Below, in pieces: positions 12,913 through 47,443 of a stretch of DNA of 64,000 nt. Each line of letters starts with the position of its first letter. Within the stretch, counting starts at the first letter, position 1. The notes below the pieces were generated by a model that was not told the DNA's origin, searched no databases, and saw nothing but the letters and a program-made list of their open reading frames with translations. Source of the DNA: Zestomonas insulae (GTDB taxonomy: Bacteria; Pseudomonadota; Gammaproteobacteria; Pseudomonadales; Pseudomonadaceae). The position numbers and the translations under genes were made by a program. The stretch lies in the NCBI RefSeq assembly GCF_016901015.1, contig NZ_JAFEUP010000006.1:248001-312000 (forward strand), read 5' to 3'.

Positions 12913-12979
12913 TGAAGTGGTTCCTTGTTGGGGTGTGCTCCGCGCTGCGGTGTGGCGGAGTCCTCGGTGTGCTTTTTAT

Positions 12980-13035: not shown

Positions 13036-15150
<2,115 letters not shown>

Positions 15151-29371: not shown

Positions 29372-30019
29372 ATGAGCGAACCGCAATCGAAGAAAACCCT
29401 TGCCCCGCGTGCTGACGAAGGCCTCTCCGCCAAGGGCGAGCAGCGTCGCCAGTCGCTGATCGCCGCGGCGCTGCGCCTGATCGTGCGCGACGGCCATCAC
29501 AGCCTCAGCCTGCGCAGCGTGGCCAAGGAAGCCGAGTGCAGTCACGGCTCGGTGGCCTACTACTTCGGCTCGAAGGGCGCGCTGATGTCGGCGGCTATCG
29601 ACCATGCCTGCGAGCAGATCGCCAGCAGCTTCAGCGCGATCGCCCCGGACCTCGAGGCCAGCGCCGGCGATCCGCTGCAGTTCGCCGCGCTTATCGCCCA
29701 GTACAACACCCGTCTGCTGATCGACGACCGCAGCATGGGTATCGCCGTCTACGAACTGAACCTGGCCGGCGCCCACGACGCCTCGCTGCGTCCCGCACTG
29801 TCGAAGTGGGGGCGCATCCACGCCGGCATCTGCCGCGAAGCCTTCCTCAAGCTTGGCTCGCAAGACCCGGACGCCGACTTCGCCTTCGTGCTGCACGCCA
29901 TCGGCGGCCTGGTCATCGCCCAGCTGTCGCTGCCGCGCAAGGACTTCGAGCAGCGCGTGTTCCTGCCCGCCATCGAGCGCCTGATCTTCAGCGTTGCCGG
30001 CCTGCCGCCACGCCGCTGA
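29372..30019 (+). CDS. TetR family transcriptional regulator
   Basis: A 215-aa regulator. The N-terminal helix-turn-helix spans about residues 23-68 (AALRLIVRDGHHSLSLRSVA, then SHGSVAYYFGSKGALM). The C-terminal helical domain would bind a small ligand. It is divergent from the monooxygenase/nitronate monooxygenase/FMN reductase operon, with two matching palindromes in the 190-base gap, so it most likely represses that operon and itself. Confidence 0.92.
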   Translation: MSEPQSKKTLAPRADEGLSAKGEQRRQSLIAAALRLIVRDGHHSLSLRSVAKEAECSHGSVAYYFGSKGALMSAAIDHACEQIASSFSAIAPDLEASAGDPLQFAALIAQYNTRLLIDDRSMGIAVYELNLAGAHDASLRPALSKWGRIHAGICREAFLKLGSQDPDADFAFVLHAIGGLVIAQLSLPRKDFEQRVFLPAIERLIFSVAGLPPRR

Positions 30020-30050: not shown

Positions 30051-30075
30051 TGGCGTTCAATGGCAAATCGTTGGC
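30051..30075 (+). promoter_or_regulatory. AraC-type regulatory element, site 1 (flavoprotein promoter)
   Basis: Three TGGC repeats begin at 30051, 30061 and 30072 (10- and 11-base steps) with the conserved core TCAATGGCAAATC. The element ends 85 bases before the flavoprotein start codon. It aligns without gaps to sites 32819-32843 and 34421-34445; 17 of 25 positions are identical in all three. Confidence 0.72.
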
Positions 30076-30160
30076 ACCCCCTGACAATTGCCCCTGCCCA
30101 CGTTCTGGCATGTTTCCGGTAACTGCCGGAAGGCATCAGACAACGTTGAAAGGTGTGGGC

Positions 30161-31621
30161 ATGAACAACCAGCAGAGTGACGGCGTCAGCCGCCGCAAAT
30201 TTATCCAGAGCGCCGGCGTGGTCGGCGCGGCAGGTGCGGCGGTAGCCGCTGGAGCGGTGTCGCTCGGCACGGCGGTGGCTGGTGAGAAGCGCGGTGCCAA
30301 GAACGTCGATTGCGACTACGACGTGGTGGTCATCGGCGGCGGCTTCGCCGGCGTGACCGCGGCGCGCGACAGCATGAAGAACGGCTACAAGACGCTGGTT
30401 CTCGAGGCGCGCAACCGCCTTGGCGGGCGCACCTTCAGCAGCGAGTTCGCCGGCCACAAGGTCGAACTCGGCGGCACCTGGATTCACTGGACGCAGCCCT
30501 TCGTGTGGGCCGAAGTGCAGCGCTACGGGCTGAAGCTGAAAGAGACCCCCGAGCCGTTCGTGGAAGAGCAGCAGACCGTCCGCATCGTCCACGAAGGCCA
30601 GTCCATCGAGCCCCAGCTCGAGGACCTGATCGGCATCTCCAAGGCGGTCAAAGAGTACTTCGGCGACGCCCCAAAACTCTGGGAACGTCCCTATGACGCC
30701 AAGCACACCTGGAACGAGCTGCTCGCCGTCGACAGCATGAGCGGTGCCGATCGCCTCAACCAGCTGAAGCTAACGCCGCTGCAGCGCTCCTTCGTCGATG
30801 CCTACGTCGCCGGTGTCGCGCACACCACCAGCGACCGTGCCTCCTACGCCGACGTGGCGCGCTGGTGGTCGCTGCCGGGCTGGAACATGACCGCGTTCGT
30901 CGACGCCGCCGGCCGCTACAGCTTCAAGGACGGCACCATCAGCCTGATCAATGCGATGCTCGACGAAGGCAAGCCGGAAGTGCGCCTGTCCACCCCGGTG
31001 GCCAAGGTCGAGGAGCAGGGCAATCGGGTGCTGATCACCACCCAGGGCGGCGAAACCATCCGCGCCGCCGCGGTGATCGTTGCGGTGCCGATGAACGTGC
31101 TGCCGCGCATCGCCTTCACTCCGGCGCTGGACCCGGCGCTGGTCGAAGCGGCCAAGGAAAAGCACAGCGGCAGCGGCATCAAGGTATTCATGCGCACCAA
31201 GGGCAAGCTGCCGGGTGGTGGCAAGCGTCTCGGCGTGGCCGGTTCCAGCCATCCGCTCAACCTGCTGGTGACCTACGCCAAGGCCGAGGATCACACCATC
31301 TTTGTCGGCTTCGGCGCCGATCCGGACAAGCTCGACATCCAGGACCGTGACGCCGTGCAGGCGGTGGTCCGTTCCTTCTACCCGGATCTCGAGGTCGAGG
31401 AGTGCTACGGCTACGAGTGGACCCTCGATCCGTATGCCAAGGGCACCTACTGCAGCTACAAGCCGAACTGGCTGGGCAAGTACTACGACCACTTCCAGAA
31501 GGACCGTGGCCGCGTGGTGTTCGGCCAGGGCGACCACGGCGAAGGCTGGCGCGGCTTCATCGACGGCGCGATTAGCGCTGGCAGCCAGGCTGCACTGCGC
31601 ACGCGGAAGCTGCTGGGCTGA
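30161..31621 (+). CDS. Tat-exported flavin amine oxidase-family dehydrogenase, NicA2-like
   Basis: A 486-aa FAD enzyme. A twin-arginine signal (SRRKFIQ, residues 10-16, then an Ala/Gly/Val-rich stretch) predicts folded export to the periplasm. The dinucleotide motif GGGFAG is at 59-64, followed by LEARNRLGGRTFSS. From memory of the family, several blocks closely match nicotine oxidoreductase NicA2 (GGTWIHWTQPFVWAEVQRYG and GTISLINAML). NicA2 is a Tat-exported dehydrogenase that passes electrons to a cytochrome c. The C-terminal FAD/active-site block reads FGQGDHGEGWRGFIDGA: the Trp is kept but the usual AGAET is changed, so the substrate probably differs from nicotine. A small cytochrome c gene lies at 34520 under the same putative AraC element. 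The 5' leader contains a TTCCGG-N6-CCGGAA palindrome (30114-30131). Confidence 0.87.
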   Translation: MNNQQSDGVSRRKFIQSAGVVGAAGAAVAAGAVSLGTAVAGEKRGAKNVDCDYDVVVIGGGFAGVTAARDSMKNGYKTLVLEARNRLGGRTFSSEFAGHKVELGGTWIHWTQPFVWAEVQRYGLKLKETPEPFVEEQQTVRIVHEGQSIEPQLEDLIGISKAVKEYFGDAPKLWERPYDAKHTWNELLAVDSMSGADRLNQLKLTPLQRSFVDAYVAGVAHTTSDRASYADVARWWSLPGWNMTAFVDAAGRYSFKDGTISLINAMLDEGKPEVRLSTPVAKVEEQGNRVLITTQGGETIRAAAVIVAVPMNVLPRIAFTPALDPALVEAAKEKHSGSGIKVFMRTKGKLPGGGKRLGVAGSSHPLNLLVTYAKAEDHTIFVGFGADPDKLDIQDRDAVQAVVRSFYPDLEVEECYGYEWTLDPYAKGTYCSYKPNWLGKYYDHFQKDRGRVVFGQGDHGEGWRGFIDGAISAGSQAALRTRKLLG

Positions 31622-31630
31622 TTGCTCCTT

Positions 31631-31664
31631 GCCGGCGGCACCTTGGGTGCCTGCCGGCTTTTTT
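31631..31664 (+). terminator. Rho-independent terminator of the flavoprotein gene
   Basis: GCCGGC-GGCACC pairs with GGTGCC-T-GCCGGC around TTGG, followed by six T. It begins 10 bases after the stop codon, between two convergent genes. Confidence 0.88.
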
Positions 31665-32673
31665 ACGCCTGCTTCTGCTGGCGATACTCGCGCGGCGTCA
31701 CCCCGGTCCAGCGGCGGAACGCGCGGGTGAACGAGCTGGCCTCGTTGTAGCCCAGCTGCTGGGCGATCTCGGTCAGGCTGTGCGACGACTGGCGCACCAG
31801 ATCGATGGCCAGGGCCTGGCGTATCTCCTCGACCAATTCGGCGAATTCCAACTCGAGCTCCTGCAACCGCCGTTGCAGGGTGCGCTTGCTCATGCACAGG
31901 TGACGGGCCACCTCGTCGATGCCGACCTTGCCGTTGCTCAGGTTGGCTTCGATGACCAGGCCGATGCGGGTGGTCAGGTCGGTATCGGCCAGGCGTCGCC
32001 GGCGTTCTTCTTCGAGGCCCGGTAGCAGCGCCTGGTGCAGCCGCGGGTCGGCGCTCAGCAGCGGCGCGTCGAGCATCTCGGTGGGCCAGGCCATGCTGTT
32101 GGCCGGCTGATCGAAGCGCAGCGGACACTGGAACACCTCGCGGTGCAGGCTGATGTCGGCCGGCTGCGGGTGGGCGAAATCCACGCGCAGCGGCGCGAAG
32201 CGTTCGCCGGTGACTTCGCGAAGCAGGGCGTACAGGTTGCCGAGCGCGAACTCGGCGTCCTGGCGACACTGACCGACGCTCGGGTCGGTGATCCGGTAAC
32301 TGATCTCCAGGCGGCCGGCCTGCAGGCGCCAGCTCAGTTCGTTGGCCTGCGCGTGCACCACGATGTAACGGCCGGCGCAGTCGAGCAGGGCGCGCACGTC
32401 CGGGGCGCTGCGCGCGACATGGCCGATGCCGCCCATCAGGCTGTTCTGGGCGCGCGCGCCGAGCAGGCCGAGGCCCATGCGCAGGCCAAGGCTGGGGTCG
32501 TTGTGCGCGGCGGCAGTCTCCAGCAGGGCGGTGTACTGGCTCAGCGGGATCTTGGTGTCCGCACGCTCGAGCACGCTCTCGTCGAGACCGACCGCAGCGA
32601 GGCACGGGCGGAAGATGTCGGCGTAACGCTGCAGCAGCGCTTCAACGTAGACGGTGTTCTTCAGGCGGGACAT
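31663..32673 (-). CDS. AraC family transcriptional regulator
   Basis: A 336-aa regulator with an N-terminal arabinose-binding-like domain (about 20-200, OruR/ArgR-type subgroup) and a C-terminal double helix-turn-helix (about 235-330; VGIDEVARHLCMSKRTLQRRL and FTRAFRRWTGVTPREYR). It lies between the flavoprotein and the sulfatase, divergent from the latter. A 25-base element of TGGC repeats occurs upstream of the sulfatase, the flavoprotein and the cytochrome c. Repeats at one-helical-turn spacing are what an AraC two-HTH domain recognises, so this protein is the best candidate activator of all three units (inference). Confidence 0.93.
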   Translation of the reverse strand: MSRLKNTVYVEALLQRYADIFRPCLAAVGLDESVLERADTKIPLSQYTALLETAAAHNDPSLGLRMGLGLLGARAQNSLMGGIGHVARSAPDVRALLDCAGRYIVVHAQANELSWRLQAGRLEISYRITDPSVGQCRQDAEFALGNLYALLREVTGERFAPLRVDFAHPQPADISLHREVFQCPLRFDQPANSMAWPTEMLDAPLLSADPRLHQALLPGLEEERRRRLADTDLTTRIGLVIEANLSNGKVGIDEVARHLCMSKRTLQRRLQELELEFAELVEEIRQALAIDLVRQSSHSLTEIAQQLGYNEASSFTRAFRRWTGVTPREYRQQKQA

Positions 32674-32818
32674 GACGAAAGGGCTCCTGGCCCGGCCGGT
32701 TCTTCGTGCGAATGAGCTCCAGCATGTGCGCAGATCGACGACCTGCACAAGCCGCAGCGCCGGCACCGTAGCAAAGCGGGATACCGCCAGCAACGGGCGG
32801 GCCAGCAGCCGGGCGAAA

Positions 32819-32843
32819 TGGCGTCGAAAAGCAATTCTTTGGC
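32819..32843 (+). promoter_or_regulatory. AraC-type regulatory element, site 3 (sulfatase promoter)
   Basis: TGGCG at 32819 and TTGGC ending at 32843 flank an AA-N2-GCAA-N-TC core in the same register as sites 30051-30075 and 34421-34445. The middle TGGC is degenerate (AAGC). It lies 96 bases before the sulfatase start and between the sulfatase and the divergent AraC gene. Confidence 0.65.
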
Positions 32844-32939
32844 GTCGAAGGGCGAGCGTGTTTGGTTCCGGTGCGGTTACCGTCCCGGCATGCTGCCTAA
32901 ACTTTTTTCCACCCGCGGGTAGCGCCTGGAGGAAGTCCC

Positions 32940-34388
32940 ATGAAATTCCGTCTGTCCTGTCTGGCGCTCTGCGGCGCCCTGTTGATGGTGCCCGCCACCT
33001 GGGCGGCAACGGCTCCGCCGAACATCGTCATCATGCTCTACGACAACCTCGGCTATGGCGAGCTGGGCGCGTATGGCGGCGGCATCCTGCGCGGCGCCGA
33101 GACGCCGCGCATCGACCAGCTGGCCGCCGAGGGCGTGCGCCTGACCAACTTCAACGTCGAGGCGCAGTGCACGCCGTCGCGCTCGGCGTTGATGACCGGG
33201 CGCTTCTCGATCCGTTCCGGCACCTACAAGGTGTCCGGTGCCGGCTCGCCGGAAGGCCTGACCCTCTGGGAAGTTACCCTGGCCGAGCTGCTTTCGGCCA
33301 AGGGCTATGCCACCGGCATCTGGGGCAAGTGGCACCTGGGCAGCAGCGAGACGCGCTTCCCGACCAACCAGGGCTTCGACGAGTGGTATGGCGTGCCGCG
33401 TACCTACGACGAAGCCATGTGGTCGCACGCCGACGAGAGCGTCGATGGCGGACCGACGATTGGCAGCAAGCAGGGCTGGGACGAGAAGCTGATGCCGCCG
33501 CAGTACATCTACGAGGCGCGCAAGGGCGAAGCCGCACGCCAGGTGAAGAAGCTCGACCTGGCCAGCAAGCGCAATCTCGACGCCGAGATCGCCGAGCGCG
33601 CCACCGCCTTCATCAAGCGCAATGCGGCCGCCGGCAAACCCTTCCTGGCCTACATCCCGTTCTCCCTGGTGCACATGCCGACGCTGCCCAACCCCGAGTT
33701 CGTCGGCAAGACCGGCAACGGCTCGTGGGCCGACGCCCTGGCCGAAGTGGACCACCGTGCCGGGCAGATCCTCGATGCGCTGAAGGCCGCCGGCGTCGAG
33801 CAGAACACCCTGGTGATCCTCGCCAGCGACAACGGCGGCGAGGCCACCCACCCCTGGGAAGGCGCCAACGGCCCGTGGCGCGGCACCTATTTCACCGCCA
33901 TGGAAGCCAGCCTGCGCGCGCCGTTCATCATGCGCTGGCCCGGTCAGGTGCCGGCCGGCAAGGTCAGCAACGAGATCGTCCATATCGTCGACCTCTACAC
34001 CACCCTGGCGCAGGTCGGCGGCGCCCAGGTGCCGAGCGACCGCGCGGTGGACGGCGTCGATCAGCTGGCGTTCCTCACCGGCAAGCAGGCGAACTCCAAC
34101 CGCGAGGGCTTCCCGGCCTACGTCGCCGATCGGCTGTCGGCCATCAAGTGGCGCAACTGGAAGCTGCAGCTGATCCAGCAGGACAACATGTACGACCCGG
34201 CGGTGGTGCTGCCGCTGCCGCGCCTGTACAACCTGCTCACCGACCTGCGCGAAGAGCACAGCGTGACGGTGGAAAACACTTGGGCGGTGCCGCGCATGAT
34301 GAGCATCGCCGGCCAGCTCAAGGCGAGCTTTAAAAAATACCCGCCGATTGAGGCCGGCACGCCCGATCCTTACAGCCCGCCGCAATGA
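32940..34388 (+). CDS. Exported formylglycine-dependent sulfatase, copy 2
   Basis: A 482-aa sulfatase with a signal peptide (cleavage around residue 23, TWAA). The formylglycine signature is C-T-P-S-R with Cys77. The metal-site motif reads YDNLGYGE, with Asn at the second position, as in one branch of the family. WGKWHLG and SDNGGEATHPWEG carry later active-site residues. An AGGAAG Shine-Dalgarno supports the start. It is divergent from the AraC gene and downstream of a putative AraC element. It belongs to a different sulfatase branch from copies 1 and 3, so a different substrate is likely. Confidence 0.92.
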   Translation: MKFRLSCLALCGALLMVPATWAATAPPNIVIMLYDNLGYGELGAYGGGILRGAETPRIDQLAAEGVRLTNFNVEAQCTPSRSALMTGRFSIRSGTYKVSGAGSPEGLTLWEVTLAELLSAKGYATGIWGKWHLGSSETRFPTNQGFDEWYGVPRTYDEAMWSHADESVDGGPTIGSKQGWDEKLMPPQYIYEARKGEAARQVKKLDLASKRNLDAEIAERATAFIKRNAAAGKPFLAYIPFSLVHMPTLPNPEFVGKTGNGSWADALAEVDHRAGQILDALKAAGVEQNTLVILASDNGGEATHPWEGANGPWRGTYFTAMEASLRAPFIMRWPGQVPAGKVSNEIVHIVDLYTTLAQVGGAQVPSDRAVDGVDQLAFLTGKQANSNREGFPAYVADRLSAIKWRNWKLQLIQQDNMYDPAVVLPLPRLYNLLTDLREEHSVTVENTWAVPRMMSIAGQLKASFKKYPPIEAGTPDPYSPPQ

Positions 34389-34397
34389 CCGGTTGCC

Positions 34398-34432
34398 ATT
34401 GAGCGCCAGTCGGAGTCGATTGGCGCTCAATG
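34398..34432. repeat. Inverted repeat overlapping AraC-type site 2
   Basis: ATTGAGCGCCA (34398-34408) and TTGGCGCTCAAT (34420-34431) are complementary around an 11-base loop, just after the sulfatase stop. The right arm is also the first half of the AraC-type element at 34421-34445. It could be a sulfatase 3'-end hairpin, a second inverted binding site, or both. Confidence 0.5.
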
Positions 34433-34445
34433 GCAAATCTCTGGC
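34421..34445 (+). promoter_or_regulatory. AraC-type regulatory element, site 2 (cytochrome c promoter)
   Basis: TGGC repeats at 34421, 34431 and 34442 with core TCAATGGCAAATC are nearly identical to site 1. The element ends 74 bases before the cytochrome c start codon. Confidence 0.72.
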
Positions 34446-34519
34446 GCTGCCCAGCGATTAGCAAAACGCCTCGAATGTCACCTTAGGTTCACCGCCAATA
34501 GTTGCTGGGGAACCTCAAG

Positions 34520-34891
34520 ATGCATCACCTGATCCGCTCGCTGGCCGGCCCCTCGCTGCTGGCGCTCAGCCTTGCCAGCCAGGCCGCCGACTGCGACGTC
34601 GCTGCTGGCCAACAGGCCTTCCAGAGCAAGTGCGCCGCCTGTCACGCCCTCGATGCCGATCGCGTCGGCCCGCACCTCGCCGGCGTGGTTGGCCGGCGCA
34701 TCGGCTCGGTGCCTGGCTTCACCTATTCGACGGACCTGGCCGGGGCGAACAGCACCTGGACCGTCGAGCAGCTCGATCGCTGGCTGACCTCCCCCGCAAA
34801 GATGTTCCCCGATACGGCGATGGCCTTTGGCGGCCTGCGCAATGCCGGTGAGCGCCAGGCCGTGCTGTGTTTCCTGCAGCAGGCCGGCTAG
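34520..34891 (+). CDS. Small periplasmic class I cytochrome c
   Basis: A 123-aa protein with a signal peptide (cleavage after QAA, about residue 23) and one heme site, CAACH at 38-42. The probable axial Met is 101 (TAMAFGG). It would carry electrons in the periplasm. The start at 34520 has GGGGAA upstream. It shares the AraC-type element with the Tat-exported flavoprotein, so the two probably act together, as NicA2 does with its cytochrome c partner. It leads an apparent operon with the DUF1302 and DUF1329 genes. Confidence 0.9.
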   Translation: MHHLIRSLAGPSLLALSLASQAADCDVAAGQQAFQSKCAACHALDADRVGPHLAGVVGRRIGSVPGFTYSTDLAGANSTWTVEQLDRWLTSPAKMFPDTAMAFGGLRNAGERQAVLCFLQQAG

Positions 34892-34962: not shown

Positions 34963-36750
34963 GTGCACAACACACACTTCCGGCGTTACCTGCTGGCCAG
35001 CGCGATTTCCATGGCCGCCTCCGGCGCGGCGTTCGGCGCGCCGTTCACCTTCGGCGAGCTGCAGGGGCAGTTCGACTCGGCCCTGTCGATTGGCGCCAGC
35101 TGGGCCACCGAGGACCCCAGCAGCAAACTGATCGACAGCACCAACGGCGGCCGCGGCTTCTCCTCGTCCGGCGACGACGGGCGGCTGAACTTCAAGAAGG
35201 GCGAGACCTTCTCGAAGATATTCAAGGGCGTGCACGACCTCGAGCTGAGCTACGGCGACACCCGCGCGTTCGTGCGCGGCAAGTACTGGTACGACTTCGA
35301 GCTGCAGGACGAGAGTCGGCCGTTCAAGCAGATCAGCGACGACGGTCGCGAGATGTCGGCGCGCTCGTCCGGCGCGCAGATCCTCGATGCGTTCGTCTCA
35401 CAGCGCTACGAGCTGGCCGAGCACCCCGGCGACGCGCGTATCGGCAAGCAGGTGGTGAGCTGGGGCGAGAGCCTGTTCATCGGCAACTCGATCAACTCGA
35501 TCAACCCGCTCGACGTCGCCGCCCTGCGCCGCCCCGGTTCCGAGCTGAAGGAAGGCCTGATCCCGGTCAACATGTTCTACCTGGCCCAGGGCCTCAGCGA
35601 TAACCTCAGCCTTGAGGCGTTCTACCAGCTGGAGTGGAAGCCCTACGCCCTGGACAACTGCGGCACCTTCTTCGGCGCCGACCCGGTGGCCAAGGGCTGC
35701 AACAACAACCTCAACGGCGGCATGGCCGGCGTCGCCCCGCTCGAGCCGATCGCCGCGGCCGCGGGCCTGGGCTTCGGGGTCAGCGATCCGGAAGGGGTGA
35801 TCATCCGCCGCGAGAAGAACAACGACCCGCGTGACAGCGGTCAGTACGGTATGGCCCTGCGCTGGTTGGGTGATGGCGTGGAGTACGGCGCCTATTTCAT
35901 GAACTATCACTCGCGCGCGCCGCGTTTCAGTCTGCGCACCGCCAGCGGCGTGACCGACTTCATCAACAACGATCCGGGCTTCGCTGCGCTCGGCGACCCC
36001 GATCTGCAGTTCGCTCTGGGCCTGGCCACCGGTGCCGGCAACACCAGCTACTTCCTCGATTACCCGGAAGACATCCACCTGTATGGCGCCAGCTTCGCCA
36101 CCGAGCTGCCCACCGGCACCGCGTGGAGCGGCGAGATCAGCTACCGGCCCAACGCGCCGATCGGCATCAACACCGCCGACCTGTTCGGCGGCGCACTGAA
36201 CCCGACCTTCCGCGCGTTGACCGGCTCCGACATCGAGCCGACCGTGCAGGCCGAGGAGGGCCAGGTGCTGCAGGGCTGGAAGCGCAAGGAAGTCACCCAG
36301 GCGCAGACCAGCTTCCTGCACCTGTTCGACCCGGTGCTGGGCGCCACCTCGCTGAGCGTGGCGGTCGAGGTGGGCCTCACCCACGTCGGTGGTCTGGAGT
36401 CGTTGGACACCCAGCGCTACGGCCGCGACTCGGTGTACGGCGACATCGTCCAGGGTGGCCGCCACGGCTACTACACCGCCAATTCCTGGGGCTACCGCGC
36501 GTTTACCAACCTCAAGTACAGCGACGTGTTCGCCGGGGTGAACCTGGCGCCGAACGTGTTCTGGTCGCATGACGTGGACGGCTACGGCCCGGTGTTCAAC
36601 GAGGGCGCCAAGTCGGTCGGTCTGGGCCTCGACGCCGACTACCGCAACACCTACACGGCCAGCCTCAGTTACACCAACAACTTCGGCGGCGACTTCAACA
36701 CCGACGTCGACCGCGACTTCGTTTCGCTGAGCCTCGGCGTGAACTTCTAA
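34963..36750 (+). CDS. DUF1302 family outer-membrane protein, copy 1
   Basis: A 595-aa protein starting at GTG (34963, AAGGA 9 bases upstream) with a signal peptide (cleavage around residue 25, AAFGA). The mature part is rich in alternating beta strands and ends in Phe (SLGVNF), consistent with an outer-membrane barrel. The DUF1302 region GDARIGKQVVSWGESLFIGN is recognisable. Members of this family recur with DUF1329 proteins in clusters for degradation of steroids and other hydrophobic compounds, but their activity is not established. The DUF1329 gene follows after 20 bases. Confidence 0.9.
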   Translation: MHNTHFRRYLLASAISMAASGAAFGAPFTFGELQGQFDSALSIGASWATEDPSSKLIDSTNGGRGFSSSGDDGRLNFKKGETFSKIFKGVHDLELSYGDTRAFVRGKYWYDFELQDESRPFKQISDDGREMSARSSGAQILDAFVSQRYELAEHPGDARIGKQVVSWGESLFIGNSINSINPLDVAALRRPGSELKEGLIPVNMFYLAQGLSDNLSLEAFYQLEWKPYALDNCGTFFGADPVAKGCNNNLNGGMAGVAPLEPIAAAAGLGFGVSDPEGVIIRREKNNDPRDSGQYGMALRWLGDGVEYGAYFMNYHSRAPRFSLRTASGVTDFINNDPGFAALGDPDLQFALGLATGAGNTSYFLDYPEDIHLYGASFATELPTGTAWSGEISYRPNAPIGINTADLFGGALNPTFRALTGSDIEPTVQAEEGQVLQGWKRKEVTQAQTSFLHLFDPVLGATSLSVAVEVGLTHVGGLESLDTQRYGRDSVYGDIVQGGRHGYYTANSWGYRAFTNLKYSDVFAGVNLAPNVFWSHDVDGYGPVFNEGAKSVGLGLDADYRNTYTASLSYTNNFGGDFNTDVDRDFVSLSLGVNF

Positions 36751-36770: not shown

Positions 36771-38138
36771 ATGAACAAGATTCTTTACAAAGGCTGCATC
36801 CTGGCGCTCAGCCTGCTGGCTGGTCAGGTGATGGCCGCAGTTTCCGCCGACGAAGCCGCGCAACTGGGCGCCGCCCTCACACCGCTCGGCGCGCAGAAGG
36901 CCGGCAACGCCGACGGCAGCATTCCGGCCTGGACCGGCGGCTTGCCGAAGGACGCCGGCACGGTTTCGTCCGGCGGCTTCCTCGCCAACCCGTTCGCCAG
37001 CGAAAAGCCACTGTTCGTGATTACCGCCGCCAACGCCGAGCAGTACCGCGACAAGCTGACCGATGGCCAGCTGGCGTTGTTCAAGCGCTACCCGCAGAGC
37101 TACCGCATTCCCGTGTATGCCTCGCATCGCACCGCCACGGTGCCGACGGCGATTCAGGACGCGGCGCGCAAAAGCGCGCTGCAGGTGCAGCCGATCAACG
37201 GTGGCGACGGCCTGAGCAGCTTCGAAAAGAGCGGCTACTACGCCTTCCCGATCCCCAAGAATGGCGTCGAAGTGCTGTGGAACCACATCACCCGCTACGT
37301 GGGCGGCAACTACTGGCGCAGCTACATCCAGGTCACCCCGCAGGTGAACGGCGCCTACACGCCGGTCCGCTTCGAGGAAGAGCAGGTGTACCCCGAGCAG
37401 GTCGCCGATTTCCCGGCGGAGAAGAAGGGCAGCATGCTGTACATGGTCAAGCAGCGGGTCACCGCGCCGGCGCGTCTGGCCGGTACCGCGGTGCTCGCCC
37501 ATGAAACCCTCAACCAGATCACCGAGCCGCGCATGGCCTGGATCTACAACGCCGGCCAACGCCGCGTGCGGCGTGCGCCGCAGGTCGCCTACGACGGCCC
37601 GGGCACCGCCGCCGACGGCCTGCGCACCGCGGATAACCTGGACATGTTCAACGGCGCGCCGGATCGCTACGACTGGAAACTGGTCGGCAAGAAGGAGCTG
37701 TACATCCCCTACAACAGCTACGCGCTGGAGTCGCCGACACTCAGCTACGACGACATCGTCAAGGCCGGCCACATCAACCCCGACCACACCCGTTACGAGC
37801 TGCACCGGGTCTGGGAAGTGGTGGCGACCCTCAAGTCCGGTGCCCGTCATGTCTACTCCAAGCGCCACATGTACGTCGACGAGGACACCTGGCAGATCGC
37901 CGAGGTCGACCACTACGACGGCCGCGGCCAGCTGTGGCGCGTCGCCGAAGGCCATGCGCTGTACCACTACCAGCAGCAGGCGTCCTACCTGGCGGTCGAG
38001 ACCCTTTACGATCTGATGTCCGGCCGCTACTTGGCGCTCGGCATGCGCAACCAGGAGCCGAGCACCACCAAGTACGGCCAGGCCGCGAAGTACTTCGACT
38101 TCACCCCGGCGGCGCTGCGCACCGACGGTCTGCGCTAG
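36771..38138 (+). CDS. DUF1329 family exported protein
   Basis: A 455-aa protein with a signal peptide (cleavage around residue 22, VMA). The family is related in fold to LolA/LolB-type lipid carriers (established at family level), so a periplasmic carrier of a hydrophobic ligand is plausible. It is paired with the DUF1302 gene 20 bases upstream, the usual arrangement. Only one DUF1329 gene is present although there are two DUF1302 genes in the window. Confidence 0.9.
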   Translation: MNKILYKGCILALSLLAGQVMAAVSADEAAQLGAALTPLGAQKAGNADGSIPAWTGGLPKDAGTVSSGGFLANPFASEKPLFVITAANAEQYRDKLTDGQLALFKRYPQSYRIPVYASHRTATVPTAIQDAARKSALQVQPINGGDGLSSFEKSGYYAFPIPKNGVEVLWNHITRYVGGNYWRSYIQVTPQVNGAYTPVRFEEEQVYPEQVADFPAEKKGSMLYMVKQRVTAPARLAGTAVLAHETLNQITEPRMAWIYNAGQRRVRRAPQVAYDGPGTAADGLRTADNLDMFNGAPDRYDWKLVGKKELYIPYNSYALESPTLSYDDIVKAGHINPDHTRYELHRVWEVVATLKSGARHVYSKRHMYVDEDTWQIAEVDHYDGRGQLWRVAEGHALYHYQQQASYLAVETLYDLMSGRYLALGMRNQEPSTTKYGQAAKYFDFTPAALRTDGLR

Positions 38139-38369
38139 CCGTCATTTGCGACGAGCCAGGCTTCATCTGCAGCGGTGGTCGCGCGAGGGCAACCTCGCCG
38201 GCCACGTTGTCCATTCTGGCGAACCTCCGACGGTCGGCATGGCCAGGCTCACCTCACCCACTCCGAGGGAGGGGTGCCGGAGCCCCCGGACCCGCCTACT
38301 GTCCATGGGCTAGGGCAGGGCGGCGATCGTCGCCCGGCCATTCATTCGAATCGAACCGGAGACTTCGAT

Positions 38370-39923
38370 ATGGCGGGTATAGCAAAACTGCTGAGTGCCT
38401 TGGCACTGGCAGGCGCCGCGTTGGGTGCGCATGCGGCGGACAAGCCGAACATCCTGGTGATCTTTGGCGACGACGTGGGTTACTACAACCTCAGTGCCTA
38501 CAACCAGGGAATGATGGGCTACGAAACGCCGAACATCGACCGCATTGCCAACGAGGGTGCGCTGTTCACCCACGCCTACGGCGAGCAGTCCTGCACCGCC
38601 GGCCGCTCGGCCTTCGCCCTCGGCGAGCATCCGTTCCGCACCGGCCTGCTGACCATCGGCATGCCCGGCGCCGAGCACGGCATCCCTGACTGGGCGCCGA
38701 CCATCGGCGACGTGATGAAGCAGCAGGGCTACACCACCGGCCAGTTCGGCAAGAACCACTTGGGTGACCGCGACAAGCACCTGCCGACCAAGCACGGTTT
38801 CGACGAGTTCTTCGGCAACCTCTATCACCTGAATGCCGAGGAAGAGCCGGAGGGCTACTACTATCCGAAGGACCCGGCGTTCCGCAAAAAGTACGGCCCA
38901 CGCGGGGTGATCCATAGCTATGCCGACGGCAAGATCGAAGACACCGGCCCGCTGAACCGCAAGCGCATGGAGACCATCGATGACGAAGTGGTCCAAGCCA
39001 CCGAGAACTTCATCGACAAGGCGCACAAGGCCGACAAGCCGTTCTTCGTCTGGTTCAACAGCACGCGCATGCATGCCTGGACCCACCTGAAGAAGGAAAT
39101 CGACGGCAAGACTGGCATCGGCCTGTACCCCGACGGCATGGTCGAACATGACGGCCAGATCGGCCAACTGCTCAACAAGCTCGACGAGCTGGGCATCGCC
39201 GACAACACCATCGTCATCTACACCACCGACAACGGCGCGCAGAAAGCCACCTGGCCGGATGGCGGTACCTCGCCGTTCCATGGCGAAAAGGGCAGCAGCA
39301 ACGAGGGCGGTCACCGCGTGCCGCTGCTGGTCAAGTGGCCGGGTGTGCTGAAAGCCGGCAGCCATTACAACAACCTGATCGCGCACAACGACTGGATGCC
39401 GACCTTGGCCGCCGCTGCCGGTGACGCGAATCTGGTCGCCGAGATGGCCAAAGGCAGCGAGCTGAATGGCAAGCAGTTCAAGGTGCACCTGGACGGCTAC
39501 AACTTCCTGCCGTTCTTCAAAGGTGAGGCCAAGGACAGCCCGCGCGAGGAGTACTTCTACTTCTCCCAGGCCGGCGAGCTGAACGCGCTGCGCTGGAAGG
39601 ACTGGAAAATCAGCTTCGCCCAGACCGAAGGCTCGGTCGGCTCGGGATCGCGCAAGGTCACCAACTGGCCGCAGATCGTCAACCTGAAGGCCGACCCGTT
39701 CGAAACCGCGCAACGCGAATCCAGCCTGTTCACCCGCTGGAAGGGCGACCAGATGTGGTTGTTCGTGCCGGTTCAGGCCGAGATCCAGAAGTTCATGGCG
39801 ACCATCCCGCAGTACCCATTCCAGGAGGGCGTTAGCCTCAATCCGGCCAACATCAACTACCAGAGCCTCGCCCTGAAGCGTGCGCTGAGCAGCCTGCAGA
39901 AGGCCCCGGCCAGCGCTCAGTAA
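38370..39923 (+). CDS. Exported formylglycine-dependent sulfatase, copy 3
   Basis: A 517-aa sulfatase with a signal peptide (cleavage around 22, AHAA). It has FGDDVGY for metal binding and C-T-A-G-R with Cys75. It shares the order and spacing of N-terminal blocks with copy 1 at 4042-5625 (PNILVIFGDD, MGYETPNID, FRTGLLTIG), so these two are paralogues. The start has a GGAGA Shine-Dalgarno. It stands between intergenic regions of 231 and 207 bases and may have its own promoter. No AraC-type element was found upstream. Confidence 0.92.
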   Translation: MAGIAKLLSALALAGAALGAHAADKPNILVIFGDDVGYYNLSAYNQGMMGYETPNIDRIANEGALFTHAYGEQSCTAGRSAFALGEHPFRTGLLTIGMPGAEHGIPDWAPTIGDVMKQQGYTTGQFGKNHLGDRDKHLPTKHGFDEFFGNLYHLNAEEEPEGYYYPKDPAFRKKYGPRGVIHSYADGKIEDTGPLNRKRMETIDDEVVQATENFIDKAHKADKPFFVWFNSTRMHAWTHLKKEIDGKTGIGLYPDGMVEHDGQIGQLLNKLDELGIADNTIVIYTTDNGAQKATWPDGGTSPFHGEKGSSNEGGHRVPLLVKWPGVLKAGSHYNNLIAHNDWMPTLAAAAGDANLVAEMAKGSELNGKQFKVHLDGYNFLPFFKGEAKDSPREEYFYFSQAGELNALRWKDWKISFAQTEGSVGSGSRKVTNWPQIVNLKADPFETAQRESSLFTRWKGDQMWLFVPVQAEIQKFMATIPQYPFQEGVSLNPANINYQSLALKRALSSLQKAPASAQ

Positions 39924-45724: not shown

Positions 45725-47443
45725 ATGACGAATAACAAGAACAAGTCGAAACAGATTCAGCTTGTCAGCTCCTCTGCGCTGCGTTTGACGGCATTGGCGC
45801 TGTGCATTGCGGCCGCTGGCCAGGTGGGGGCTTTCGAGATCGATACCGGTAACGAGGACCTGCAGCTGCGCTTCGATAACACGCTGCGCTACAACATCGG
45901 TCAGCGTCTGGACAGCCAGTCCAAGGCCATTCTCGGCAACGCGAACAACGACGACGGTGATCGCAACTTCAACAAGCACAGCATGGTTGCCAACCGTCTC
46001 GACATCCTCACCGAGACCGACCTGGTCTATAAGGGCAAGTACGGCGCGCGGGTCAGTGCGGCGAGCTGGTACGACCAGGCCTATGAAGGTGATCTGGATG
46101 GTGACAACACCGCGACCTCCAACCATCTGCAAGATGGTCGGCCGGCACAAGGTCTGAGCAACTACGCCACGCGCTACTACCGCGGGCCGTCCGGCGAGAT
46201 CATGGATGCCTTCGTGTTCGGCTCCTTCGACCTCGGCAACATGCCGCTGAACGCCCGTTTCGGCCGTCACACGGTCAACTGGGGCGAGTCGCTGCTCGGT
46301 AGCGGCGCGATCCATGGTATCTCCTACGGCCAGGCGCCGCTCGACCAGGCCAAGGCCCTGGCGCTGCCGGGCGTGGAAGCCAAGGAGCTGTACCTGCCGC
46401 GCACCCAGATTTCCGCGCAATTGCAGGCCACCTCCGAACTGTCCTTTGCCGCGCAGTACTTCCTGGAGTGGCGTCCTTCGCGCGTGCCGGAGGCCGGTAC
46501 CTACCTGGGCTTCAGTGACGCCTTCCTGCAGGGCGGCGAGTCCCTCGTTCTGGGGGGGAGGCGTGTCGGGCATGGCGACGATATCGAGCCGGAGGACCGT
46601 GGCGACTGGGGCGTGATGGCGCGCTGGAGCCCGGAGTGGCTGGACGGCACCCTCGGCTTCTACGTGCGCAACTTCTCCGACACCCAGCCGCAGCTCATTC
46701 AGATGATTACGGTGGGATCGCCCGCGCTTAATTGCACCACGACGTCCTGCAAATACTTCGCGAACTACGGCGACGACATCGACATGTACGGCCTGAGCCT
46801 GTCGAAGGAAGTCGGCGGCATCAGCTTCGGTGCGGACCTCAACTATCGCCGCAACATGCCGCTGAACAGCGGCGCGGTGACGGTGACCTCGCCCGCCCGG
46901 CTGCCGGACGATGGCGATGTCCTCGGTGCCCGCGGCGACACCCTGCACGGGGTGCTCAACGCGATCGGCTCGCTCAGCCCGACGGCGGTGTACGACGGCG
47001 CTTCCTGGTCGGCCGAGCTGACGGCGAGCCGTTGGCTGTCGGTCACCGACGACCCGAACAACGTGTTCAAAGGGACCTCCCTGTACAAGTCCAACCCGCT
47101 CAACATCGATGCGGTGACTCGCAGTGCCTATGGCGCGGCGGTGAACTTCACGCCGGTCTGGTACCAGGTGTTCCCGGGTGGCGACGTGTCCTTGCCGCTC
47201 AGCTACTCGCGCGGCCTGAACGGCAACTCCGCAGTCGCCTCCGGCGGCAACGAAGATGCCGGCAGCTACGCGGTCGGCGTGGCTCTGGACCTGTACAGCC
47301 GCTACCGCTTCGACCTGAAGTATGTCGACTACTTTGGCGACATCTCGAAGAACCCCAATGGCTCCCTGCGCACCACCAGTGGCGCTCAGTCGGCCCTGGA
47401 AGACCGCGGCGCGGTGTTCTTCACCTTCAAAACCACGCTCTGA
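45725..47443 (+). CDS. DUF1302 family outer-membrane protein, copy 2
   Basis: A 572-aa protein with a longer-than-usual positively charged N-terminus and a signal peptide (cleavage around residue 37, VGA). The mature part shows alternating beta strands and the DUF1302 block NARFGRHTVNWGESLLGSG. It is divergent in sequence from copy 1. It is followed by the YCF48-like and MMPL genes on the same strand. That trio recurs in bacterial steroid and hydrophobic-compound clusters, suggesting a trans-envelope transport function (established association, mechanism unknown). Confidence 0.9.
   Translation: MTNNKNKSKQIQLVSSSALRLTALALCIAAAGQVGAFEIDTGNEDLQLRFDNTLRYNIGQRLDSQSKAILGNANNDDGDRNFNKHSMVANRLDILTETDLVYKGKYGARVSAASWYDQAYEGDLDGDNTATSNHLQDGRPAQGLSNYATRYYRGPSGEIMDAFVFGSFDLGNMPLNARFGRHTVNWGESLLGSGAIHGISYGQAPLDQAKALALPGVEAKELYLPRTQISAQLQATSELSFAAQYFLEWRPSRVPEAGTYLGFSDAFLQGGESLVLGGRRVGHGDDIEPEDRGDWGVMARWSPEWLDGTLGFYVRNFSDTQPQLIQMITVGSPALNCTTTSCKYFANYGDDIDMYGLSLSKEVGGISFGADLNYRRNMPLNSGAVTVTSPARLPDDGDVLGARGDTLHGVLNAIGSLSPTAVYDGASWSAELTASRWLSVTDDPNNVFKGTSLYKSNPLNIDAVTRSAYGAAVNFTPVWYQVFPGGDVSLPLSYSRGLNGNSAVASGGNEDAGSYAVGVALDLYSRYRFDLKYVDYFGDISKNPNGSLRTTSGAQSALEDRGAVFFTFKTTL

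Follow-up and report, generated by a model that had tools for sequence, protein, structure and literature searches.

A tandem TGGC-box operator at three promoters around an AraC-family gene of Zestomonas insulae: a probable regulon for periplasmic amine oxidation

The operator of XylS has been described as TGCA-N6-GGNTA-N6-TGCA-N6-GGNTA, and the monomer sites of Rob and SoxS as GCAC-N7-CAA and GCAC-N7-TAAA (PMC4514859); a consensus for BenR is also available (PMC6449761), and QhpR regulates the quinohemoprotein amine dehydrogenase operon, qhpABCDEFGR (PMC7876137). Here, we describe a conserved TGGC-containing element in a 64,000-nucleotide stretch of Zestomonas insulae DNA (contig NZ_JAFEUP010000006.1, positions 248,001 to 312,000; the window), where it precedes three transcription units around the gene for an AraC-family regulator. 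Like the operators of XylS/BenR and of MtlR in Pseudomonas, the element has tandem two-box half-sites with a period of about 21 bp and lies upstream of the presumed -35 region; it differs from them in its boxes, which are TGGC and TGRCAAA/nRGCRAT, and in being carried by three scattered promoters. Each half-site is also similar to the sequences given for Rob and SoxS monomers (PMC4514859). The genes concerned recall the NicA2/Pnao-CycN system of Pseudomonas putida S16: the nearest solved relative of the window flavoprotein is Pnao (7U6L), and the second nearest of the window cytochrome c is CycN (7TLX), the electron acceptor of Pnao (PMC9396064). However, the window genes are in separate transcription units and would be tied by an operator instead of by adjacency. 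The window probably holds an AraC/XylS-type regulon, here predicted to serve periplasmic amine oxidation; among the matches listed in open-licence papers, none is about this regulon by its title.

We propose that the AraC-family protein encoded at 31663..32673 on the reverse strand uses the element as its operator and switches on a set of genes for periplasmic amine oxidation, within which electrons pass from a flavoprotein to a cytochrome c; we put the probability of this reading at about 0.85. An AraC dimer would occupy two tandem half-sites 21 bp apart, and in each half-site the two helix-turn-helix (HTH) motifs of one monomer would contact the TGGC box and the TGRCAAA-like box that follows at a distance of 10 bp. 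The proximal half-site would abut the presumed -35 region; therefore, AraC would be an activator at the three promoters, which precede the gene for a flavoprotein with a putative twin-arginine translocation (Tat) signal, a sulfatase gene, and a cytochrome c-DUF1302-DUF1329 gene set. It can be envisioned that the flavoprotein oxidizes an amine and hands the electrons to the co-regulated cytochrome c, while the sulfatase may cleave a sulfate ester to free this amine or a related compound.

An earlier inspection of this DNA, here called the sequence-only reading, had placed 25-base sites at 30051-30075, 32819-32843, and 34421-34445. These coordinates are right, and all three sites match TGGCGNNNAANNGCAANTCNNTGGC with 0 mismatches, an exact fit that is true by construction; the test that matters is that of independent sites. 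The identity of 17 of the 25 columns in all three sites, as claimed, is also that of the best ungapped three-way 25-mer in the 200-bp upstream regions, compared with 10 to 13 identical columns in 200 dinucleotide shuffles of those regions. The sites end 85, 96, and 74 bases ahead of the starts of the flavoprotein, sulfatase, and cytochrome c genes, respectively, in agreement with the range of 74 to 96 bases first given. A step of 10 to 11 bases between TGGC boxes was correctly read in sites 1 and 3; however, site 2 has TGGC at positions 1 and 22 only. The 25-base element itself is real but was drawn too short, as it runs 14 bases further downstream to give a conserved unit of 39 bp. Alone, the 25-base pattern is unspecific, with 94 places in the genome at three or fewer mismatches (10 of these at two) compared with 14 when the pattern is reversed; a rough estimate made by hand suggests that the free choice of 25-mers across the whole window could give a 17-of-25 triple about once. 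What gives the sites their significance is their placement at promoters, together with independent sites at other loci and in other species. The original observation was thus real, understated, and interpreted correctly in outline.

In an alignment of 33 sites, the conserved unit is a direct repeat of two tandem half-sites with a 21-bp period, laid out as TGGC-N6-TGRCAAA-N4-TGGC-N6-nRGCRAT; the consensus is TGGCRYCnAATGRCAAATC-NN-TGGCGYnnnCnGGCRATT, with conservation up to position 39. Three such operators lie on the forward strand of the window: operator 1 (30051..30089) ahead of the flavoprotein gene, operator 2 (32819..32857) between the divergent araC and sulfatase genes, ahead of the latter, and operator 3 (34421..34459) ahead of the cytochrome c-DUF1302-DUF1329 genes. 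Candidate -10 hexamers picked by eye (CATGTT, CAAGGT, and TTAGGT) start 20 to 24 bp downstream of the sites, so that the -35 element would fall at the end of the proximal half-site; both the -35 and the -10 positions are presumed. Tandem half-sites about 21 bp apart, with two boxes each and close to the presumed -35 region, are the arrangement by which AraC/XylS operators are recognized. Upstream of operator 3, a lone inverted half-site (34393..34408, reverse strand; 9.8 bits) faces the distal half of the operator over 12 bases, which yields a perfect 16-base inverted repeat at 34393-34436. We rejected this repeat as an operator part and regard it as a local feature, because none of the 10 other clusters scored has an inverted half-site in the 80 bp ahead of its cytochrome c site (half-site scores, 24.6 in the window versus -3.9 or less).

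The sequence-only reading had asked whether the motif might occur with equal score at many unrelated genes, and a scan of the 4.87-Mb genome did not bear this out. The scan used a fixed-spacing model, R1, which was derived from 27 sites in nine other genomes and from none in the genome of the window (G000). Operator 3 ranked first (37.1 bits) and operator 1 second (35.3 bits), followed by the cytochrome c site of a paralogous cluster (19.9 bits) and the weak operator 2, which was matched over 32819-32855 (19.1 bits; rank 4). Next came two unrelated places at 13.7 and 12.7 bits and then the flavoprotein site of the paralogous cluster at 12.5 bits; the two unrelated matches were treated as chance, and the one at 13.7 bits lies inside a 286-codon frame. 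Across the genus, the motif goes with the AraC gene: in 396 sampled genomes, matches at an E value of ≤1e-4 were found only in G000, G238, G600, and G639, all of which carry the AraC gene and have their matches at the clusters. The carriers were called from a sample of 398 genomes of the genus, and the 396 scanned for the motif were drawn likewise.

Orthologues of the window AraC (E ≤ 1e-110) are rare, being present in 10 of 398 genomes of the family and 5 of 398 of the genus. Five named loci were added, including those of P. umsongensis DSM 16611, P. schmalbachii, and P. taiwanensis xwS3, four of which coincide by their coordinates with genomes already found. Altogether, 13 distinct clusters were read (the window, its paralogue, and 11 others), with L051 and L052, which are nearly identical to L050, kept out of the counts. 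Among the clusters having each gene, a site precedes the flavoprotein gene in 12 of 12, the cytochrome c gene in 12 of 12, and the sulfatase gene in 11 of 12. The exception is L055: there, the sulfatase gene follows the flavoprotein gene head to tail after about 0.1 kb, and the DNA between the two holds no site, which is what an operon would show. The 21 kb of L034 contain no match to the flavoprotein or the cytochrome but retain one weak site, scoring 16.5 bits, ahead of the sulfatase gene. Separately, the P. schmalbachii locus (L033) holds motif-like sequences at 12950-12974 and 13969-13993 (three and two mismatches) near thioesterase and Fe-alcohol dehydrogenase genes; neither was matched by R1 at E ≤ 5.

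The genome of the window carries a second copy of the system. Sites at C3:94019-94043 (two mismatches) and C3:96894-96918 (three mismatches) flank an AraC gene 76% identical to that of the window, and the flavoprotein, cytochrome c, DUF1302, and DUF1329 of this cluster are 91%, 71%, 77%, and 71% identical to their window counterparts. Its sites lie 74 (cytochrome c) and 87 (flavoprotein) bases before the starts, compared with 74 and 85 in the window; the 19.9 kb read for this cluster contain no sulfatase match. A piece of another DUF1329 gene lies at the region's edge (L017:19313-19900; 65% identical). Among 15 aligned AraC proteins, only the paralogous regulator, AraC2, has TGASAFS instead of NEASSFT in the recognition region of the second HTH motif, although single changes there occur in five others (L050-L052, L054, and L055). 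A T at position 15 is found in 2 of the 33 sites, both from the AraC2 cluster (TGGTTAAT and TGGATAAT), and the boxes of the two systems contrast as TGGCAAAT versus TGG[A/T]TAAT. This apparent covariation of helix and box is suggestive of AraC as the binder. Two paralogous copies with an altered recognition helix and altered boxes constitute a natural test of operator insulation.

The window AraC has a C-terminal double HTH domain (PF12833, HTH_18) and an N-terminal ligand domain (PF12625), both above cut-off. It also scores 261.9 bits against the NCBIfam QhpR model (NF049968; cut-off, 250 bits) and is linked to amine oxidation genes, as QhpR is. Of six other cluster AraC proteins, three pass this cut-off (258.9, 252.9, and 253.6) and those of L055, L050, and L049 fall below it (245.3, 238.2, and 237.8). 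However, we rejected the window protein as a true QhpR because the qhp genes are not linked to it: the quinohemoprotein amine dehydrogenase gamma gene of this genome lies on another contig (G000:C5:289867-290091), about 4 kb from a different AraC gene whose product scores 145.4, and the 17-kb qhp locus (L092) has no operator at a score of ≥11. None of the six other loci for QhpR-like AraC proteins in the genome (L115-L120) has such a site either, and use of the site by QhpR-like AraC proteins in general was accordingly rejected. Overall, the idea of a single AraC regulon over the three units is supported by the specificity of the motif, its co-occurrence with AraC, its AraC/XylS architecture, and its recurrence both beside the paralogue and beside AraC proteins of 42 to 44% identity.

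Related sites also occur with more distant regulators. The two best noncluster R1 matches across the 12 AraC carriers, G038:C28:77354 (25.4 bits) and G131:C1:2578769 (20.6 bits), were inspected and proved to precede a DUF1329-DUF1302 pair in clusters whose AraC is 42% identical to that of the window. Three weaker matches from the genus scan (G523, G483, and G491) belong to clusters of like make-up with AraC proteins 42%, 44%, and 42% identical. A flexible scan, trained on 32 sites, none of which came from these five clusters, and allowing 20- to 23-bp spacing, located a site ahead of all three units in every cluster (15 of 15; scores of 12.4 to 43.7). For G038, G131, G523, G483, and G491, in that order, the scores were 43.7, 36.3, 41.3, 35.9, and 30.6 before DUF1329; 17.0, 19.3, 24.9, 19.4, and 22.4 before a methylamine/aromatic-amine dehydrogenase heavy chain; and 14.9, 20.6, 12.4, 20.8, and 21.2 before a DAO-type FAD oxidoreductase. 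The starts of the latter two genes are presumed, and some of the sites lie within the stop-to-stop frame, before the signal peptide or conserved domain. The spacing was 22 bp at 12 of the 15 sites and 21 bp at the other 3, all ahead of the FAD enzyme. Reversed-sequence controls on 10 loci (152 kb) and on 3 loci (55 kb) gave no match at a score of ≥11.

Two further genomes (G569 and G493) have the genes for a flavoprotein (56% identical), cytochrome c, DUF1329, and DUF1302 in one row behind an AraC gene whose product is 42 to 43% identical, which means that the genes split over the window promoters stand together elsewhere. One explanation may be that a QhpR-like AraC branch and its TGGC tandem operator form an exchangeable module for periplasmic amine oxidation, in which unrelated enzymes (flavoprotein with cytochrome c in one branch, methylamine/aromatic-amine-type dehydrogenase with a DAO-type FAD enzyme in the other) are combined with constant DUF1302 and DUF1329 proteins. 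The three additional clusters of the second type favour this idea, which we hold tentatively, at slightly less than even odds. Were it true, DUF1302 and DUF1329 would form an envelope component devoted to amine catabolism, and the electron acceptor of a flavoprotein would be recognized by a shared operator instead of by a neighbouring gene.

Several explanations compete with activation by the window AraC. A different regulator, such as the TetR-type protein encoded at 29372-30019 or a global factor, might own the repeats, with the AraC gene a mere neighbour; binding by AraC is itself a prediction, and the genome is rich in AraC-type genes (28 matches at E ≤ 1e-10). However, we rejected the TetR protein as the binder, since it has no relative (blastp, E ≤ 1e-3) in any of the 12 other clusters read. 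The confinement of the sites at E ≤ 1e-4 to AraC carriers (4 of 396 genomes), their AraC/XylS-like layout of two boxes in tandem at 21 or 22 bp, and their recurrence by 42 to 44%-identical AraC proteins adjoining different enzymes all make another owner improbable. Shared ancestry of a recently spread cluster could also account for the likeness of the sites without any functional constraint, and the patchy distribution noted above (10 of 398 family genomes) is what horizontal spread predicts. We consider this the most improbable of the alternatives: the mean pairwise identity is 0.68 to 0.80 at positions 1 to 25 and 0.52 to 0.73 at positions 26 to 39, compared with 0.28 to 0.30 at -60 to -21 and 0.30 to 0.35 at 71 to 100 (11, 11, and 10 clusters per gene, leaving out L055 and L034). 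Moreover, the sites are kept in the duplicated cluster, with AraC proteins of 58 to 64% identity, and in L049, where the gene order is altered and all three sites persist.

A further possibility overlaps with our proposal, in that the sites would be true AraC sites but would serve only repression or autoregulation, or the flavoprotein would be an ordinary oxidase and the cytochrome would belong to another route. Operator 2 does lie in the divergent gap adjoining the AraC gene. Dehydrogenase function is reported to be predictable from a Tat signal combined with a cytochrome c gene in the same operon (PMC12224317); in the window, 2.9 kb that include araC and the sulfatase gene separate the flavoprotein gene from the start of the cytochrome c gene, such that this adjacency is lacking. 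However, the sites lie just upstream of the presumed -35 region, placed by eye, as in XylS and MtlR, and the flavoprotein and cytochrome resemble the Pnao/CycN pair and have their counterparts as neighbouring genes in G569 and G493. In the window, the shared operator would provide the link that gene order does not, and G569 and G493 supply the adjacency; we consider the repressor or oxidase alternative unlikely, while giving it more weight than the other two.

Other results weigh against our proposal that the window AraC activates this regulon through the element. The case is wholly computational. Scores are low for operator 2 (19.1 bits) and for the two sites of the second cluster (19.9 and 12.5 bits), the last of which is slightly outscored by the two unrelated places. 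R1 scores are not independent in the 9 of 13 clusters that supplied its sites, and inspection of the AraC carriers covered the two best noncluster matches, those above 19.1 bits. Among the 396 genomes, 12 outside the five carriers hold one weaker match each (E values of 5.2e-4 to 0.0093); 3 of these are sites of the five more distant clusters, located before DUF1329 genes, and the other 9 have no homologue of a cluster protein within about 1.5 kb. The fifth carrier, G547, has no cluster site under the fixed-spacing model, although in the flexible scan its flavoprotein and cytochrome c genes are preceded by sites with 22-bp spacing (scores of 23.5 and 23.3, respectively). The site between AraC and the flavoprotein in G569 and G493 is weak, with 22-bp spacing and a score of 12.7 versus 10.8 or less for other matches in the loci. 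Finally, the covariation of AraC2 with its boxes is a single case, a sulfated substrate is a guess made from the presence of the sulfatase, and the role of that enzyme is conjectural.

The window genes under the three operators all lie on the forward strand. The flavoprotein amine oxidoreductase (30161..31621; PF01593), a presumed periplasmic amine dehydrogenase, has a twin-arginine motif, SRRKF, read by eye at its N terminus, and the small cytochrome c (34520..34891; PF00034) is its presumed electron acceptor; the two are probably enzyme and acceptor. The sulfatase (32940..34388; PF00884), whose best solved relative is an arylsulfatase (7aj0), is presumed to be exported and has a CTPSR motif, read by eye. 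Downstream of the cytochrome c gene, and presumably in its operon, are the genes for a DUF1302 protein (34963..36750; PF06980) and a DUF1329 protein (36771..38138; PF07044). These results provide a precise operator for the regulon and predict a flavoprotein-cytochrome pair that the published gene-adjacency rule would miss. In addition, DUF1302 and DUF1329, which are of unknown function, gain a concrete setting beside two kinds of amine-oxidizing system.

A second sulfatase gene (38361..39923, forward strand; PF00884) is a possible extension of the cytochrome c operon, and no R1 match lies ahead of it. At the presumed formylglycine site, it has CTAGR where the first sulfatase has CTPSR, as read by eye. 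Further downstream in the window, at 45764-47440, is another DUF1302-like gene, which is 27% identical to the one at 34963.

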